A stretch of DNA of 64,000 nt from positions 1 through 64,000 of the IMG/VR virus record IMGVR_UViG_3300020433_000671. One strand, given 5' to 3'. Both the position numbers and the translations under genes were made by a program. The DNA comes from a virus. The notes below the pieces were generated by a model, which was given only the letters and a program-made list of their open reading frames with translations, did no database searches and was not told the DNA's origin. Below are positions 13,920 through 20,508 of this stretch, piece after piece (position 1 is the first letter of the stretch; every line of letters begins with the position of its first letter).

Positions 13920-15029
13920 TTAACACTTCCACTTTCTAAGTGCTAATGCTTTACGAGTTGGTCTACCTTTTTCATCTTTCATCGGTCCTTTAACTCCACT
14001 CATACGAGCACAAAAAGATCTCTTTCTAGGACCACCTTCTGGTTGTGGTCGTTTTAAATCAGAACCAGGATTCTCACGTTCGTAAGACTTTCTACCTTTC
14101 TCATTCAAACCACCAGTCTTATTCTTACCTTCCTTGCGTTGCCATGCAGCAGACTTCTCTTGTATTTTTTCTAACTGATCTAATGCTTCACTCGACCAAT
14201 ATACATGTGTTTCTGTTTCCTCTCTTTTATATGCAGGTACTTTAGCACCTTTCACACCACGACGTGCTTTGTGTTCTTCTCTACGTTTTTCAATAGTCTT
14301 GCCTCTCTTACCCTCAGGGTCAAACATGCCAGGATCACCATGACCAGGACCCATTCTTCTATAATTTCTGATAGATGCTTTACCGTAATCACTACGACCT
14401 TTATCTACCTTTGCCTCTGGTAGTACTTCTTCATTTTTAGGACGGCAATCAGGAACTAACTTACCACCTTTCATCTTCATACCTACTTTCTTATGAGTTT
14501 TCCAACATTCTGCTTGAAAATCAGAAAAAGATTTACGTCCTTCAAACTCTTCTTTCTTACTACTATTACCCCAGTTTGCAGCACCAACTTTACGACACTT
14601 AACTAATGCACCTGATGCATAAGCACTTGGCCATACTGAATATCTTGACTTAACCTTATGGTAACAGGCATCTTTACTACCACTACCTTTACCTTTTTTA
14701 TCCTTGGTTTCGGAGATTTGAGTTTCTTCTTTCATTTTTTTCTTGGGTTTGTCAGTTGAAACATAAGTTGGTTTTGCAGCACCTGATTTAGATTGTTGAT
14801 TAGGATCTGCTTTCTTTTTGCGACGAGCAGCAGATAATCTTTCTGACTTGCTCATGCTTGCTCTCTTTGCTGAGGACACACATTTAGGAGTTCCCTCACC
14901 TGGTTCATCACTTGCACAAGTTCCACCAGTTACTACGTTAACCCAACCACCTTTACCATCCTTGGATTTAGAACCCTTGAACCATTTGTGGAGTGAACCT
15001 TCGTCGATTAGCTGGTGAAAATTTTTCAT
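13920..15029 (-). CDS. Lys/Gly-rich virion-type protein with DUF5872-like segments
   Basis: About 369 residues, strongly basic. Cys-containing blocks include GGWVNVVTGGTCASDEPGEG and PKCVSSAKRASMSKSERLSA. Also present are ACYHKVKSRYSVWPSAYASG with ALVKCRKVGAANWGN, and KRSFCARMSGVKGPMKDEK. Similar blocks occur in DUF5872-type and other cyanophage structural proteins, and in giant-virus proteins. The start at 15029 gives an ATGA overlap with the upstream gene. Basic charge suggests DNA contact or packaging in the head; function is unproven. Confidence 0.85.
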   Translation of the reverse strand: MKNFHQLIDEGSLHKWFKGSKSKDGKGGWVNVVTGGTCASDEPGEGTPKCVSSAKRASMSKSERLSAARRKKKADPNQQSKSGAAKPTYVSTDKPKKKMKEETQISETKDKKGKGSGSKDACYHKVKSRYSVWPSAYASGALVKCRKVGAANWGNSSKKEEFEGRKSFSDFQAECWKTHKKVGMKMKGGKLVPDCRPKNEEVLPEAKVDKGRSDYGKASIRNYRRMGPGHGDPGMFDPEGKRGKTIEKRREEHKARRGVKGAKVPAYKREETETHVYWSSEALDQLEKIQEKSAAWQRKEGKNKTGGLNEKGRKSYERENPGSDLKRPQPEGGPRKRSFCARMSGVKGPMKDEKGRPTRKALALRKWKC

Positions 15030-15244
15030 GACCACGTTTTACCCATATCTTCTATAGTGCAGTTGGCGATAGGAGAGTCGCTGATTAATGTTTTAAATAC
15101 ATATTCAGTCATAACAGAATTCTGGTATAACATCTGAGAAGAGTAAGTTTTACCTTTAAAATCTTCTCTAACAGCGTCTGCTTCTGCATTATTAGTAGCA
15201 TAACCATTACCAATAAGAAATTGTCTTGCTTCTGTGGGTGTCAT
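15026..15244 (-). CDS. 72-residue hypothetical protein
   Basis: MTPTEARQFLIGNGYATNNA looks like a small helical domain; the rest is polar and ends IEDMGKTWS. It is linked by ATGA overlaps both to the gene upstream (15241) and downstream (15029), so it is part of a co-translated set of Lys-rich virion-type genes. Confidence 0.82.
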   Translation of the reverse strand: MTPTEARQFLIGNGYATNNAEADAVREDFKGKTYSSQMLYQNSVMTEYVFKTLISDSPIANCTIEDMGKTWS

Positions 15245-16056
15245 GATCCTAATCCTCTACCTTTATCGTAGTTGTCTTTTCCACCATACCTTGCCATGGT
15301 ATTAACATAATCTTGAGAAGATTTAAATCCTCTCTTCTTAGCATCAGCAGCAGTTTGTTTTTTAACATCTGCTGCTTTCTTATACTTACCAGTACCTGCA
15401 GTAGATTTTTGACCCTTTACTTTCTTTTGTTGTCTGCTGCCACCTGTCATGACTGCACCTTTACCATGTTCTTTCCTGATTTTATCAAGAACGAATGACA
15501 ATGCAGCATCCTTAGGTTTGTTCCCAGATGGTTTTTTAGTTCCACCCTTATCGTAACCCGTTTCTTTTTTAAGTCGGGTTGCTTCATGGAATTGTCCAAA
15601 GGTCAAGATCGAATTTTCAGTGCTCTCTTTTGTGCTTTTTTCTGAAACTTCTTCTTGACTGTCATAGGTTTTAGATTCAAAGTGAGGGTTTTTCATTTGC
15701 GGACCTTTCATAAGCTCTTTACGAGCCTTCTCATTATTTTTTTGACGTTTTTTAAAGTCCGTCTCTAAGTATGTATCATCTTTTTTCTTTCCTTCTTCTA
15801 CTTCTTTTTTCTTTCCATAAGTTATACAAGGATCTTGTCCACATCCACAATTTTTTGGTTTCTTTTCTTCATGTACATATCCCAATTTCTTGTACTTGTC
15901 ATGGTCAGCCATACTGTTGGCTTTATACTTCTTCCCAGTCTTCTTATCAATCATGATGTGAGGTTTAAACTCTTTCTCCATCACATCTGTAACTTTAGGA
16001 TTGATCTTAACTCCTGTCTTCTTTTTTTCGTTTAGTTCTTTAAAACTAAGCATCAT
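15241..16056 (-). CDS. Lys-rich virion-type protein with Cys pair
   Basis: About 271 residues, low complexity and basic. It contains MIDKKTGKKYKANSMADHDK, followed by KKLGYVHEEKKPKNCGCGQD and a central Glu/Lys-rich stretch. The C-terminus has EHGKGAVMTGGSRQQKKVKG and GGKDNYDKGRG. The ATG at 16056 or 16053 is preferred over the 16086 start, which lies well inside the preceding gene. Cyanophage genomes carry several such proteins next to head genes. Confidence 0.8.
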   Translation of the reverse strand: MMLSFKELNEKKKTGVKINPKVTDVMEKEFKPHIMIDKKTGKKYKANSMADHDKYKKLGYVHEEKKPKNCGCGQDPCITYGKKKEVEEGKKKDDTYLETDFKKRQKNNEKARKELMKGPQMKNPHFESKTYDSQEEVSEKSTKESTENSILTFGQFHEATRLKKETGYDKGGTKKPSGNKPKDAALSFVLDKIRKEHGKGAVMTGGSRQQKKVKGQKSTAGTGKYKKAADVKKQTAADAKKRGFKSSQDYVNTMARYGGKDNYDKGRGLGS

Positions 16057-16753
16057 CCTCTGCCTCGTCGTGAATAACATGCTCATGCATGCCTCCCTCC
16101 AAGATTTCTAGTTTAGAAACTGGAACATGTTTTTCAATACCATGCTCAAAGAAAACGTCATAGTGTTGTACTACACCATTCTCATCAAGGTCATGCATTC
16201 CTTTGATACAATTACCAACACCAAACTCCTCATGTTTTACTTTTGATGCACAGTCATGCTTTTTCTTTTTCTTACTACCATATCCTTCACCCATCTCTTC
16301 TTTCTTCTTCTTCTTTTTCTTCATATCACCATCATGTGATCCTCCACAATTTTCTCCAAGAACCTCCAAGTTCTTATCGTAGTTAACATAATGCTCGTGT
16401 GGACCTTCTTGAATAATTTCTAATTCTTCTACAGGCACATTCTCCATAATAAAATTACCATCAGTAATATCATAATGAGTTACAGTACCATCTTCCAATA
16501 GTGTATGTGCTTCTGGAATTACATCATACTCTCTGTCTTCCATCTTAACTTTAGACGCACAAAGGTGAGTCTTCTTACCCATCGCCTTAGCAATAGTCTT
16601 ACGACGATTCAATAGATAAGAATCACTCTTATCTTTATCACCATCATTATCCATGTCACCATCTTCTTTACCGACAGGATCTAATTTTTTCTTTTCATAC
16701 ATTTGCACTTGTTTCAGTGCTTCCGAAAAATCGGGTAGTTCTCTAAGATTCAT
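16046..16753 (-). CDS. Acidic/Lys-rich virion-type protein with duplicated domain
   Basis: 235 residues. The DGDMDNDGDKDKSDSYLLNR segment (about 32-51) resembles an EF-hand-like Asp/Gly calcium loop. It is followed by two copies of a domain: CASKVKMEDREYDV...VTHYDITDG...VPVEELEIIQEGPHEH and CASKVKHEEFGV...VQHYDVFFE...VPVSKLEILEGGMHEH. A poly-Lys linker (KKKKKKK) separates them. The repeat is visible by eye along about 60 residues. Function unknown; the neighbours suggest a virion component. Confidence 0.85.
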   Translation of the reverse strand: MNLRELPDFSEALKQVQMYEKKKLDPVGKEDGDMDNDGDKDKSDSYLLNRRKTIAKAMGKKTHLCASKVKMEDREYDVIPEAHTLLEDGTVTHYDITDGNFIMENVPVEELEIIQEGPHEHYVNYDKNLEVLGENCGGSHDGDMKKKKKKKEEMGEGYGSKKKKKHDCASKVKHEEFGVGNCIKGMHDLDENGVVQHYDVFFEHGIEKHVPVSKLEILEGGMHEHVIHDEAEDDA

Positions 16754-16757
16754 GGTA

Positions 16758-17912
16758 CTATCTGTCCTTGTCCCTTTTATTTAGCTTACGAATGAATTCA
16801 CCTGGTGTTAATCTTTTCATATAATTGGCAAGTTTATCTGTACCAATCTCACCAGCAGGTTTATAATTAAAAAACTTAAGTTTATTTATTTCCACTAAGT
16901 CTTTTAACCAAGTACGAAAAAGATGATCAGACTCATCAATAGAGATGACGTAATTGCTACCACGACTAACAACTTTAGAAATGACTCCTGTATTATCGTT
17001 CTCGACATAAGATCCCACCTTAAATAAATTTGAATTGAAATATGCTTCACGAAGACCTTGAGGATCTAACTTAGGAGCAATCTCATACAGATCGTATGAT
17101 GCTTCAGCAAAATCATCAAACTCTTCTACTTGCATTGCTTGACGTAAAGTTGTATATAACTTTTCCGTGCCATCTTTACCTAAACTTTTTGTCATTCCTC
17201 GTTTAAAGGAATCAAAATCATCTTCTGCTGCTGCCTTACGAAGTTTAGATGCAGACATACCTTCTACACCTTCACCATCTGGGTCTCTTGCTCCCGCAGA
17301 AACTACATTGATCTCATCAAATGTGTATAGATCTCCATTGTATTTCTGTGCAAGACTATTAAACTCACTAACTCTATCACCACCCACTACCAAATTAACT
17401 GTGCTATATCCCTCAGAGTCAAGAGTGCTAAGAACATCAAAGATAGTTCTCATATCTTCATTGTTTTGAATAGCATTAGCATGATCAGGATATGCTTGCT
17501 TCATGAATCCAATTTTAGTTCCTGCATCAAGAGGATTCTTCTTAGGATCTTCAGATCTAGATGGATATATTCTATACTCTCCTCCACTAGATTTTGCCTG
17601 TTGAGCAACTCTATTTAAAAGTTTCTCATGTCCAACAGTAGGTGGATTAAATCTTCCAAATGTAACAGATATGCTACCTTGATCGACCTGACCCTCGCCA
17701 GCTCCCGTTTCTTCTCCTCCATTTTGCTGTGTTTGTGCTGCTGCCTGTTGACCAGACACCTTTACTAGTTTACCGTCCTTAGAAATGTGGGTGACGTTGC
17801 CATTTACATCGGCATACTTACCATACCCTACATGCTTAAGTTTTAATTTCTCTGCTTCTTTTGCAGCGAAGGATCTTTCGGCTTCAGTTAGGAAAGCACT
17901 GAACTTTTTCAT
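16758..17912 (-). CDS. Cytidylyltransferase/NMNAT-like nucleotidyltransferase
   Basis: 384 residues. After about 75 variable residues comes a Rossmann nucleotidyltransferase core: SVTFGRFNPPTVGHEKLLNR (about 82-101) carries the (T/H)xGH active-site motif, and NLVVGGDRVSEF and GMSASKLRKAAAEDD supply the later nucleotide-binding motif. The C-terminal 130 residues are a separate module, with VGSYVENDNTGVISKVVSRG. The family transfers nucleotides to phosphate acceptors (NMN, phosphopantetheine, CTP-dependent). Many cyanophages have such a protein among virion-type genes; its substrate is not known. It overlaps the ligase-like gene by 29 bases. Confidence 0.88.
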   Translation of the reverse strand: MKKFSAFLTEAERSFAAKEAEKLKLKHVGYGKYADVNGNVTHISKDGKLVKVSGQQAAAQTQQNGGEETGAGEGQVDQGSISVTFGRFNPPTVGHEKLLNRVAQQAKSSGGEYRIYPSRSEDPKKNPLDAGTKIGFMKQAYPDHANAIQNNEDMRTIFDVLSTLDSEGYSTVNLVVGGDRVSEFNSLAQKYNGDLYTFDEINVVSAGARDPDGEGVEGMSASKLRKAAAEDDFDSFKRGMTKSLGKDGTEKLYTTLRQAMQVEEFDDFAEASYDLYEIAPKLDPQGLREAYFNSNLFKVGSYVENDNTGVISKVVSRGSNYVISIDESDHLFRTWLKDLVEINKLKFFNYKPAGEIGTDKLANYMKRLTPGEFIRKLNKRDKDR

Positions 17913-18870
17913 TCTGCCAATTCTTACTAAGGTTAAAGTTTGCTCTACTAAAAGTTAGTCTATCCACTATCTTGTAAGGATTGGTTGAAACCGTAACGAA
18001 CCCCTCATGTTGAGAAAGTTCTCCATCGATGTAACATTCAACATTTCCATTTACAACAATAGCACCGAGTAGACGCTGTTTCAGTTGGAAGATTTTATGC
18101 CATACCTTAAAGGTACTTACATTTACTTCTCCCTTATATTTAGCATCTAACGTATCATACATTTTTTGAGGATGCGGAAGTTTGCCTTGTCTTACGAATG
18201 AATTGATATGTTTTGCTATCTCAGTGCGGGATTGTGGAACCTTTGCAACCATGAGTGTAGGTAGTATCTTTGCTAGATGTCTCCATCCCAAGGGTGGTTC
18301 TACAGTAGCATTGTTAGTATCAACAAAGTAGCAACTAGAAGTGCTATCAAGACTAACTCCTATCTTACCTTCAGCAGTAGAACTGAGTTCTGTATACTCT
18401 GTATGTGGTGCTAGAATAATTTTTTCAGAAATCTTATGACCAAACTTATACTGAATAGTATTAGGACAATAAACATTCCCCCCACCGACACCGATCCAAT
18501 CAGCTTGGATAATACGATTGATGCGAGGAAGGTTATCAAGACATAACCTAAGAATGTCAGAGACAGTGCCTTGATGATTCTTATCAATGTCTTCATGACT
18601 GTAATTGATTTTGATTTTACGTTTGTTGAAGACGGACTTGGTGCCCACAAAGAACTTACCATTCTCAGGATTAGTACCAAACACTATGGCAGGAGCACCA
18701 TCCCATTTGACAGACAGTCTAGTAACTGTCACAAGTTCTTTGATGGCATCTATTGCAACCTTACGTCCTTGAAGGATTGAATCTTCTGGGTGTTCAAGGT
18801 GTTTGTTGGGCATCTCAACCGTTTCTGATACCCATATTATACTACATCCACACGCTGTTTTGGGTTTCAT
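17884..18870 (-). CDS. Ligase-like nucleotidyltransferase-fold protein (DUF6267-type)
   Basis: The protein has LSVKWDGAPAIVFG (about residues 52-65), which matches motif I (KxDG) of covalent nucleotidyltransferases (DNA/RNA ligases, capping enzymes). FFVGTKSVFNKRKIKINY follows. Near the C-terminus HEGFVTVSTNPYKIVDRLTF resembles motif IV (EGxV) and a motif V Lys. The segment KHLEHPEDSIL near the N-terminus occurs in related cyanophage proteins. Start could be 18870 or 18813. Substrate and activity are unproven; adjacency to the NMNAT-like gene is suggestive. Confidence 0.82.
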   Translation of the reverse strand: MKPKTACGCSIIWVSETVEMPNKHLEHPEDSILQGRKVAIDAIKELVTVTRLSVKWDGAPAIVFGTNPENGKFFVGTKSVFNKRKIKINYSHEDIDKNHQGTVSDILRLCLDNLPRINRIIQADWIGVGGGNVYCPNTIQYKFGHKISEKIILAPHTEYTELSSTAEGKIGVSLDSTSSCYFVDTNNATVEPPLGWRHLAKILPTLMVAKVPQSRTEIAKHINSFVRQGKLPHPQKMYDTLDAKYKGEVNVSTFKVWHKIFQLKQRLLGAIVVNGNVECYIDGELSQHEGFVTVSTNPYKIVDRLTFSRANFNLSKNWQNEKVQCFPN

Positions 18871-18883
18871 TGTGCCACTTTTC

Positions 18884-20278
18884 TTACTGGAGTTTCCAAT
18901 ACACAGACGACTTATCTGACTGTGAAGATGCGTACAAATATATTTCTTTTATGATCTGGTCAGAATCTTTATGAGAGGATACCCAATCTAAAAATTTTAA
19001 TCCAGTATATTTACTATACTTCCATGCTTGTTCTGCTGTTTTAATCCATGCCATGTCAGTTCCTTTATTCTTTAAACCCTTTGCTTTATATTTCACCAGT
19101 AACTTATATATTTCCTCATCTAACTTATTAGTCTTAGCTTTACTCCAAGTATCTGTTGCACCATACTCAGGTAGTGTGCCAAACTTACCATCCTTTAATA
19201 ATTCTTGTACTTTCTTACCTTGTATTTTACCTTGTGCAGCAGATTTACCTTTCAATTCTAACTTCCAATCACCTTTTGTAGGACCACCAAAGTTTCTTGC
19301 TTGAAATTTTTCAAAATTACCTGTGCCATAGTACACATAAACATCCATGGGATGACTATCACCTTTCCTACCATTATCGAATGTCAAATCATACTTTACA
19401 AAAGATGCTTTTTCGTTTGCTTTTCTTTCAGAGGGAGGTCTATCATTTAACAATTTCATATTAGGTCTACCTTCAATTTTTTTCAAAGATATACCAACTA
19501 ACTCCCCCTCTGCTCTCAATTGTAATAGAGCATTGTTTAAACAATCAATAGTAGTTTCTTTATCAAGATGTTTTTTTACTTTGGTCTTATCTTTCACCAT
19601 CCATATATCAGAAGGATTCCATTTATCTTCTGATGATAAGTTAGTTTGATTCTTCACTCTATTGAATGCATTCTTAACTGCACCATCATCAATAATAGAA
19701 TCACCTCTAACAAATGTCCATCCTTTACCACCTACCTTACCAAATATTGTATTAGCACCTGCCCAAGATGATTCTTGCCAATCTTTTCCTAGTGAAATAA
19801 TTTCACTTAACTTAGCAGTTACATCACAATATCTCATACCACATTTAAAATCCTCTTCAGTAAACGCTTTTTTCTTTTCTATATTAGGACAGTAATATCT
19901 CATAGCAGCATAGACACATTGTGCAGATTCTACTAGTGCAGTTTGTGCAGCACCACCACCAGATCCTTTACTATTTTCTGGTTTAACTTCTATTCTAATA
20001 ACTTGTTTTTCTCTTATCGGAATATCTAAGGCAGTGCCTTTTGTATTAGTTGTAATTCCTGGATATTTTTCATCTAATGCACCTTTTATATTTTCAACTG
20101 CTGCAAGTCTTTTTGTTTGAGGAACAAAAACTTTTAATGCTATCTGAACTTTCTTGGTTGAATCCTTGTCCTCTACATTCTTAACATCAAATAGGTAATA
20201 AGAATAATCATCACCCCCCAATGCCTGCATTACATCTTCAAAAGCAGTTCTGTTTATTGGGGGTATTGTTATTGCCAT
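18884..20278 (-). CDS. Conserved cyanophage protein, possible PD-(D/E)XK nuclease fold
   Basis: 464 residues. ALDIPIREKQVIRIEVKPEN (about 82-101) fits the D...ExK core of PD-(D/E)XK nucleases, followed by a helix with GGGAAQTALVESAQCVYAAM. A second nuclease-like pattern is PSDIWMVKD (about 222) ... GELVGISLKKIEG (about 263). Either could be the real core. The product sits two genes from the ligase-like and cytidylyltransferase-like proteins. An AATAAATA late element lies 25-32 bases upstream. The fold assignment is by eye only. Confidence 0.83.
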   Translation of the reverse strand: MAITIPPINRTAFEDVMQALGGDDYSYYLFDVKNVEDKDSTKKVQIALKVFVPQTKRLAAVENIKGALDEKYPGITTNTKGTALDIPIREKQVIRIEVKPENSKGSGGGAAQTALVESAQCVYAAMRYYCPNIEKKKAFTEEDFKCGMRYCDVTAKLSEIISLGKDWQESSWAGANTIFGKVGGKGWTFVRGDSIIDDGAVKNAFNRVKNQTNLSSEDKWNPSDIWMVKDKTKVKKHLDKETTIDCLNNALLQLRAEGELVGISLKKIEGRPNMKLLNDRPPSERKANEKASFVKYDLTFDNGRKGDSHPMDVYVYYGTGNFEKFQARNFGGPTKGDWKLELKGKSAAQGKIQGKKVQELLKDGKFGTLPEYGATDTWSKAKTNKLDEEIYKLLVKYKAKGLKNKGTDMAWIKTAEQAWKYSKYTGLKFLDWVSSHKDSDQIIKEIYLYASSQSDKSSVYWKLQ

Positions 20279-20298: not shown

Positions 20299-20508
20299 CT
20301 AATATTTATTGTCTATATTATCATCTAATGCTTGTTCTGCATGTTCCAGTATAGGAACTATATGTATGATATTATCAATGTTAGCCATCATATCCGCAAT
20401 GTGCTTTGCAATGTATGGTTTTTCAGTACGTGCTGCAAATGATAATGCGTTACGTAGGTTCTGTTGTGCTTCCTTTAATGAAGTCTCTACTTGTTGGGAT
20501 AGTGCCAT
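20299..20508 (-). CDS. 69-residue helical conserved protein
   Basis: MALSQQVETSLKEAQQNLRN then ALSFAARTEKPYIAKHIADM. The pattern of a small helical bundle with LRNALSFAARTE recurs in cyanophages as an unnamed family. The start at 20508 gives the best match; in-frame ATGs lie four and thirteen codons upstream. It overlaps the membrane protein gene upstream by 59 bases. Confidence 0.78.
   Translation of the reverse strand: MALSQQVETSLKEAQQNLRNALSFAARTEKPYIAKHIADMMANIDNIIHIVPILEHAEQALDDNIDNKY
20303..20310 (-). promoter_or_regulatory. Late-promoter-like AATAAATA
   Basis: AATAAATA on the minus strand, 25 bases upstream of the ATG at 20278 and inside the last codons of the preceding gene. It matches NATAAATA and would start late expression of the virion-type block to the left. 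Confidence 0.55.

Follow-up and report, generated by a model that had tools for sequence, protein, structure and literature searches.

What would a nuclease-like protein, a ligase-like protein and a nucleotidyltransferase be doing side by side amongst the virion genes of a marine T4-like phage? The question is raised by a minus-strand cluster in a 64,000-nucleotide stretch of viral DNA (IMG/VR record IMGVR_UViG_3300020433_000671, positions 1 to 64,000; hereafter the window), which is part of a 75,490-base virus record most closely related, among named phages, to Prochlorococcus phage P-SSM7 (Kyanoviridae). The cluster lies downstream of uvsX, gp41 and mazG, and its genes, named here by their lower coordinate, are 18884 (18884–20278, 464 amino acids; PHROG_1462, T4-GC 533), encoding the nuclease-like protein, 17884 (17884–18870, 328 amino acids; T4-GC 71), encoding a ligase-fold-like protein of the family DUF6267, and 16758 (16758–17912, 384 amino acids; PHROG_395, T4-GC 190), encoding the nucleotidyltransferase. 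We consider that this late operon encodes some of the proteins that marine T4-like phages carry inside the head, a reading to which we assign a probability of roughly one half. Judged by predicted activities, its composition suggests an injected enzyme kit, in which a swappable nuclease is paired with two conserved nucleotide-handling proteins.

The three open reading frames (ORFs) are arranged as the original prediction had described, with an overlap of 29 bases between 17884 and 16758 and a listed gap of 13 bases between 17884 and 18884. One correction applies: the conserved start of 17884 is probably M20 (window position ∼18813), and thus 17884 and 18884 are probably ∼70 bases apart. Residues 1–19 are missing or unconserved in homologues, and have a predicted local distance difference test score (pLDDT) of 34–41 in the structural model. 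In all observed pairs, the DUF6267 and nucleotidyltransferase genes are spaced by −40 to +23 bases, and are therefore overlapping or almost touching. When we checked for co-occurrence, the gene order proved to be conserved across marine T4-like phages, including P-SSM7 (whose counterparts of the three genes are likewise T4-GC 533, 71 and 190), as well as S-SSM5 and P-HM1, where the order is identical. A late-promoter-like element, ATAAATA, stands at −31 of 18884 (minus strand, 20303–20309, as placed on the sequence by that offset), and the 120 bases upstream of 17884 and of 16758 showed no such element. Because the element precedes only the first gene, and the second and third are coupled, we infer that the three form a single late transcription unit. 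Taken together, they are, as far as promoter-like signals and gene order reveal, a late operon that marine T4-like phages have conserved. A hint of natural fusions between DUF6267 and the nucleotidyltransferase came from PHROG_455, which spans both; none was found among the loci examined, and as such we make no argument from fusion. In S-CRM01 (L254:4995–10802), four genes lie between DUF6267 and the nucleotidyltransferase, one of which is annotated as a serine/threonine kinase.

Predicted activities of the two conserved proteins

The middle gene, 17884, belongs to Pfam family DUF6267 (PF19782, E-value 4 × 10−95), which is present in 470 phage records, nearly all of them cyanophages, and also in phages of Methylophilales, Pelagibacter, Vibrio, Stenotrophomonas and Pseudoalteromonas; the literature searched does not mention it by name. 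Its predicted ligase-like character is borne out by a confident AlphaFold2 model (mean pLDDT 89.5). A Foldseek search of the PDB placed polynucleotide ligases at the top, with weak E-values (0.03 and above), and upon re-alignment with VIA all 50 listed structural neighbours were polynucleotide ligases, with a best Z-score of 8.2 over 175 residues (Naegleria Rnl, 8.2; T4 Rnl1, 8.0; fungal Trl1, 7.7; T4 Rnl2, 6.5). The KxDG and EGxV motifs named in the original prediction occur as KWDGAPA and EGFV. In an alignment of 85 diverse sequences, with invariance counted over 91, the residues K55, D57, G58, K78, Q122, D124, E289, G290, K300 and R304 are identical in 91 of 91; these include motif I (K55, D57 and G58), with its putative nucleophilic lysine, and the EG of motif IV (E289 and G290). 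For motif III, the invariant D124 (within QxD) is a plausibly located candidate, with aspartate rather than glutamate. In motif V, K300 and R304 are invariant, and the second lysine of KxK is absent, with V or I at position 302 in every sequence. When counted from the aligned C-terminal ends, a range reading made without superposition, E289 and K300 fall within 1–2 residues of E312 and K326 of the Naegleria enzyme (numbers from entry titles), and of E227 and K240 of T4 Rnl1.

Profile comparison of DUF6267 with the T4 Rnl1 and Rnl2 families (hhalign) was not significant (E-values 0.045 and 0.15), with only motifs IV–V aligned, and a PDB sequence search with the DUF6267 profile returned nothing meaningful. 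Owing to this, together with the missing second lysine of motif V and the aspartate of motif III, we do not file DUF6267 as an RNA or DNA ligase; as modelled, it resembles a nucleotidyl-lysine enzyme, and may work like one. A PADLOC REase_II match to DUF6267 (E-value 8 × 10−4, residues 227–322) was dismissed as spurious because the conserved motif I lies outside it. At stand-alone DUF6267 loci, which have no nucleotidyltransferase (L075–L082 and L107–L174), the 138 neighbouring ORFs include matches to N6_N4_Mtase (13), MethyltransfD12 (6) and ResIII/DEAD-type helicases (21), as well as one MjaI-type restriction enzyme. Shared descent of these loci inflates such counts, and for this reason the methyltransferases are not used as strong evidence.

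For the third gene, 16758, the assignment to the HxGH-type nucleotidyltransferases holds. The protein matches PF01467 above the curated cut-off (24.3 bits versus 21), and carries FGRFNPPTVGH, a TxGH variant of the HxGH motif that is conserved in homologues as FGRF[NQ]PPTxGH, and is followed in the family by SASKxR or ISGTKMR. A PDB sequence search with 16758 alone found nothing, and one with the family profile found a single partial match (E-value 0.003); the family itself is present in > 500 phage records. By motif and domain match, 16758 is thus an HxGH-type nucleotidyltransferase with a second, C-terminal domain. Weak matches to NCBIfam nicotinate-nucleotide adenylyltransferases, alongside PF01467, would suit a function centred on NAD, whereby the enzyme is an injected nicotinamide mononucleotide (NMN) adenylyltransferase that upholds host NAD+, for example against an NAD-depleting defence, with DUF6267 and the nuclease as bystanders. 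The orthologue in phage S-SCSM1 is indeed annotated as NMNAT, in line with a proposal by the authors of that study (PMC9602691). The similarity of 16758 to any named enzyme is, however, weak, and the tight coupling to DUF6267 would be left unexplained; we regard this explanation as quite unlikely.

A further feature of 16758 is its N-terminal peptide, MKKFSAFLTEA (minus strand, 17880–17912), which follows the first eleven residues of T4 IPII/IPIII, MKTYQEFIAEA, position by position in pattern. In T4, an N-terminus of this type, ∼10 residues long, directs proteins to the head (PMC9958956). A capsid-targeting pattern written from the 16758 start and from T4 IPII/IPIII was found at the N-terminus of 82 of 86 homologues, compared with 3 of 9,361 methionines lying inside ORFs of the set; the copies in S-SM1 and S-SCSM1 begin MKKFSAFLNEA and MKSFLQFLKEA, respectively. 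The LTE/A within the window's peptide resembles the T4 prohead protease site. In jumbo phages, the same type of nucleotidyltransferase domain occurs without the capsid-targeting N-terminus, and in Klebsiella phage Muenster (L251:5471–6522) the domain directly follows an annotated DNA adenine methyltransferase. Additionally, the C-terminal domain of the nucleotidyltransferase exists as a split-off gene in S-RIM32 (L092:6730–7011) and in PHROG_4808; to judge from this match, their annotation as 'ribonucleotide reductase alpha subunit' looks wrong.

The nuclease-like protein and its slot

No Pfam family matches the first gene, 18884. Two nuclease patterns had been proposed for its product, and only the second withstood comparison with 47 divergent homologues: E97 of the first pattern, D85...E97-x-K, is found in just 14, and this candidate was rejected. 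The second, NPSD...GISLK, provides a putative active site, P222-x-D224...S264-L-K266, in which P222, D224, S264, L265 and K266, along with N278, are invariant in all 47. The canonical (D/E)xK is absent, S264-x-K266 standing in its place in 47 of 47. Active restriction enzymes of the CCGG family with a displaced acidic residue are known (PMC6344858), and candidates for such an acid in 18884 are E117 (46 of 47) and E341 (E in 45, D in 2). The AlphaFold2 model is again confident (pLDDT 93.8). In Foldseek and VIA alignments, solved folds matched the N-terminal domain only (PDB matches, residues 4–109), with residues 5–105 resembling RsfS and nucleotidyltransferase-type folds of the polymerase-mu/Cid1 kind (Z-scores 8–10); over the full length, the structural matches were to phage proteins, none with a named function. 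This comparison bears on the N-terminal domain, and hardly on the nuclease half, for which a PD-(D/E)XK core is a candidate fold. PDB sequence searches with the nuclease profile and the V5/V8 profiles gave nothing meaningful.

The position of 18884 is that of a swappable gene. Where DUF6267 is followed by the nucleotidyltransferase, the preceding gene belongs to the 18884 family at 89 loci, and is a different gene at 22. These other genes form families that mostly could not be joined by profile comparison, leaving ∼8 sequence-unrelated families in the slot. All 15 of the slot genes tested carry the pattern x-x-D-hydrophobic-x-hydrophobic...S-x-K, as do 2 of 82 control families; both of these are slot genes themselves, so that no true control family has it. 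The test is partly post hoc because the pattern was written after the families had been seen, and slot genes fetched later from S-SM1, S-CAM9, S-RIM44 and ACG-2014b, each from an already-seen family, fit it as well. Replacement extends to close relatives: in phages L004, L025, L015 and L011, DUF6267 is 88–94 % identical to that of the window, and the slot genes are quite different. One slot family, that of L099 and S-CAM9 and not the window's own, matches the PADLOC type II restriction enzyme profile REase_II over the motif (E-values 2 × 10−10 and 8 × 10−10). Furthermore, an N6/N4 DNA methyltransferase lies between the nuclease and DUF6267 in L175. In ACG-2014f (L324:1386–2783), a 169-amino acid protein carrying a canonical PD-x5-ELK lies, together with an adenine methylase of type II-like kind, two genes upstream of the nucleotidyltransferase; these may make up an entire restriction-modification pair within the slot region. 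No long repeats that might mark mobility were found around the nuclease gene. We interpret this position as a slot for predicted restriction-type nucleases, which would have been filled many times independently, or by genes diverged past recognition.

These data bear on two alternatives. The first is that the three proteins are structural components of the head, which retain enzyme folds and are inactive, in keeping with the serine in place of D/E in the nuclease, the incomplete motif V of DUF6267 and location in the virion. The predicted catalytic residues do not vary freely, however, but are invariant across very divergent sequences (91 of 91 for DUF6267 and 47 of 47 for the second site of 18884), and for that reason cannot be motifs arising by chance; moreover, D...SxK recurs in ∼8 unrelated families, and displaced acids occur in active enzymes (PMC6344858). 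We therefore regard inactivity as very unlikely. The second is a role in RNA repair, with the ligase-like protein and the nucleotidyltransferase acting on RNA, such as host-cleaved tRNA or caps, and the nuclease cutting RNA. The nearest solved folds of DUF6267 are indeed RNA ligases rather than DNA ligases. The restriction enzyme profile match of one slot family and the methyltransferases beside the cluster in two cases argue against this role, and S-CREM1, which carries DUF6267, also has an annotated RNA ligase; we think RNA repair very unlikely.

Virion evidence and a proposed role

Evidence for a virion location comes from the literature, and concerns orthologues in relatives rather than the window's own proteins. 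The nucleotidyltransferase was detected in purified S-SM1 virions in a study published in 2010 (PMC3037559), and subsequently in virions of S-SCSM1 (PMC9602691) and S-CREM2 (PMC10665884); the S-SCSM1 authors also cite its detection in S-CBWM1 (PMC9602691). In addition, S-SCSM1 ORF90, a homologue of 18884, is annotated as a virion protein in a record with 45 virion proteins from mass spectrometry, and the slot nuclease of Melnitz-3 begins MQGFKTFLSEA, which is capsid-targeting-like. The three family assignments stand as far as fold or motif goes. The prediction of a cut, activate and seal set carried in the virion is supported in part, with cargo status holding for two members, the nucleotidyltransferase and the nuclease homologue, and DUF6267 not being listed in the two virion sets consulted; a joint reaction of the three would be conjecture.

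The virion findings also weigh against a further explanation, in which the late-expressed nuclease would not be injected for use on the host but would serve to fight co-infecting phages (superinfection or mutual exclusion), or would be a homing-like selfish gene, with the neighbouring enzymes serving other purposes. The late-promoter-like signal and the wholesale exchange of the gene among closely related phages are what phage competition would be expected to produce, and two of the close slot families occur in few named phages. The presence of the S-SCSM1 homologue in the virion and the start of the Melnitz-3 nuclease argue otherwise; for a selfish gene, the fixed place before DUF6267 and the nucleotidyltransferase would be odd, and repeats that mark mobility are lacking. 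On balance, we consider this explanation unlikely.

Under the cargo reading, the nucleotidyltransferase would enter the prohead by means of its capsid-targeting-like N-terminus, to be trimmed by the prohead protease, and the nuclease would also be loaded, either through a signal of its own, as in Melnitz-3, or via DNA or other cargo. Both would then pass into the cell along with the genome. The nuclease would be a restriction-type endonuclease whose specificity is repeatedly replaced, and because it is replaced again and again, the enzyme would most likely cut DNA other than the phage's own early in infection, be it the chromosome of the host, elements residing in it or the DNA of a competing phage. 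The most speculative steps concern the two conserved proteins: DUF6267, translated from the same message, might be a ligase-fold enzyme of the nucleotidyl-lysine type that seals or adenylylates nucleic-acid ends, and the HxGH enzyme might supply or recycle a nucleotide, for example by converting NMN and ATP to NAD+. In its fullest form, the proposal is that marine T4-like phages inject a restriction-type endonuclease, its specificity exchanged between phages as whole genes are replaced, together with a nucleotidyltransferase, and that a dedicated enzyme of ligase fold, representing a new lineage, guards or mends the phage's own ends. Such a system would be a counterpart of restriction and repair that is offensive and borne by the virion; we advance it tentatively, and think it more apt to fail than to hold.

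The cargo reading draws on the late-promoter-like site of the first gene and the coupling of the other two; on the capsid-targeting pattern of the nucleotidyltransferases and of the Melnitz-3 nuclease; on virion detection in three phages; on the unrelated slot families with their shared D...SxK, one with a restriction enzyme match; on the methylases in L175 and ACG-2014f, the latter with its PD...ELK protein; and on the ligase-like fold and invariant KxDG, EG and K of DUF6267. Several observations weigh against it. DUF6267 is not listed in two virion sets: in S-SCSM1 its gene has another genomic location and does not bear the label of virion protein, and the S-CREM2 proteome table (the table only, the genome not having been viewed) contains no gene from the stretch before the nucleotidyltransferase. 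DUF6267 is also present alone, without its partners, in other phages. From these two facts, its action may be confined to the infected cell, and its purposes may be several. Moreover, S-CRM01 has DUF6267 and the nucleotidyltransferase with no slot-sized gene before DUF6267, the S-SCSM1 authors caution that proteins of this kind might have been carried over into caesium chloride fractions (PMC9602691), none of the three proteins has a known activity, and most nuclease loci lack an adjacent methyltransferase by which phage DNA might be spared.

Were the ligase-like fold and the nuclease slot to be borne out, an enzyme kit that is partly inside the particle would be carried by several hundred ocean phages. 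This would extend the injected T4-type cargo known so far to active enzymes, provide a natural set of ∼8 unrelated nucleases serving one purpose, and explain the recurrence of 'cytidylyltransferase' in cyanophage particles.

The surroundings of the cluster match those originally described, with late-promoter-like elements and adjoining lysine-rich genes. Downstream on the minus strand are a lysine-rich protein at 16046–16753 (PHROG_764), which differs in size and composition among phages and has its own late-promoter-like element at −31 (CTAAATA, minus strand, 16778–16784), and a second at 15241–16086 (PHROG_1784/1418), a relative of which, S-SCSM1 ORF89 (PHROG_1418), is annotated as a virion protein. 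A third lysine-rich protein (13920–15035, minus strand), with DUF6321 at its C-terminus, has a capsid-targeting-like MKNFHQLIDEG two codons past the listed start, and may be a further internal head protein.

Comparison with known systems

The 16758 family corresponds to the cyanophage virion cytidylyltransferase or 'NMNAT' (T4-GC 190), known as a core and virion protein (PMC3037559, PMC9602691, PMC10665884); in the literature searched, we found no earlier report that it has a capsid-targeting sequence, that it is coupled to the ligase-like DUF6267, or that a slot for swappable nucleases accompanies it. DUF6267 shares with T4 RNA ligase 1, Naegleria Rnl and Trl1 the predicted fold (Z-score ∼8), as well as KxDG, EG[FY]V and the first lysine of motif V, arranged in the expected order, and differs from them in the lack of significant profile similarity, the aspartate of motif III, V/I for the second motif V lysine and the absence of their typical C-terminal domain. 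The slot genes resemble type II restriction endonucleases of the CCGG family with a displaced acid (Cfr10I, NgoMIV and PfoI) in their P-x-D...S-x-K layout, and type II enzymes more generally in one family's PADLOC match and in the methylases occasionally nearby; unlike these, they are virion-linked, phage-borne and usually without a neighbouring methyltransferase. The closest kind to the cluster is the T4 internal protein set (IPI, IPII, IPIII and Alt). Here the cargo has the look of nucleases and a nucleotidyltransferase, and a conserved gene of ligase fold is joined to it, whereas IPI and similar internal proteins of T4 inhibit nucleases and are not nucleases themselves. The two are nonetheless alike in the length and pattern of the N-terminal capsid-targeting sequence, in virion location, in late genes and lysine-rich neighbours, and in the variable repertoire that stands behind a common targeting signal (PMC3012670, PMC9958956).

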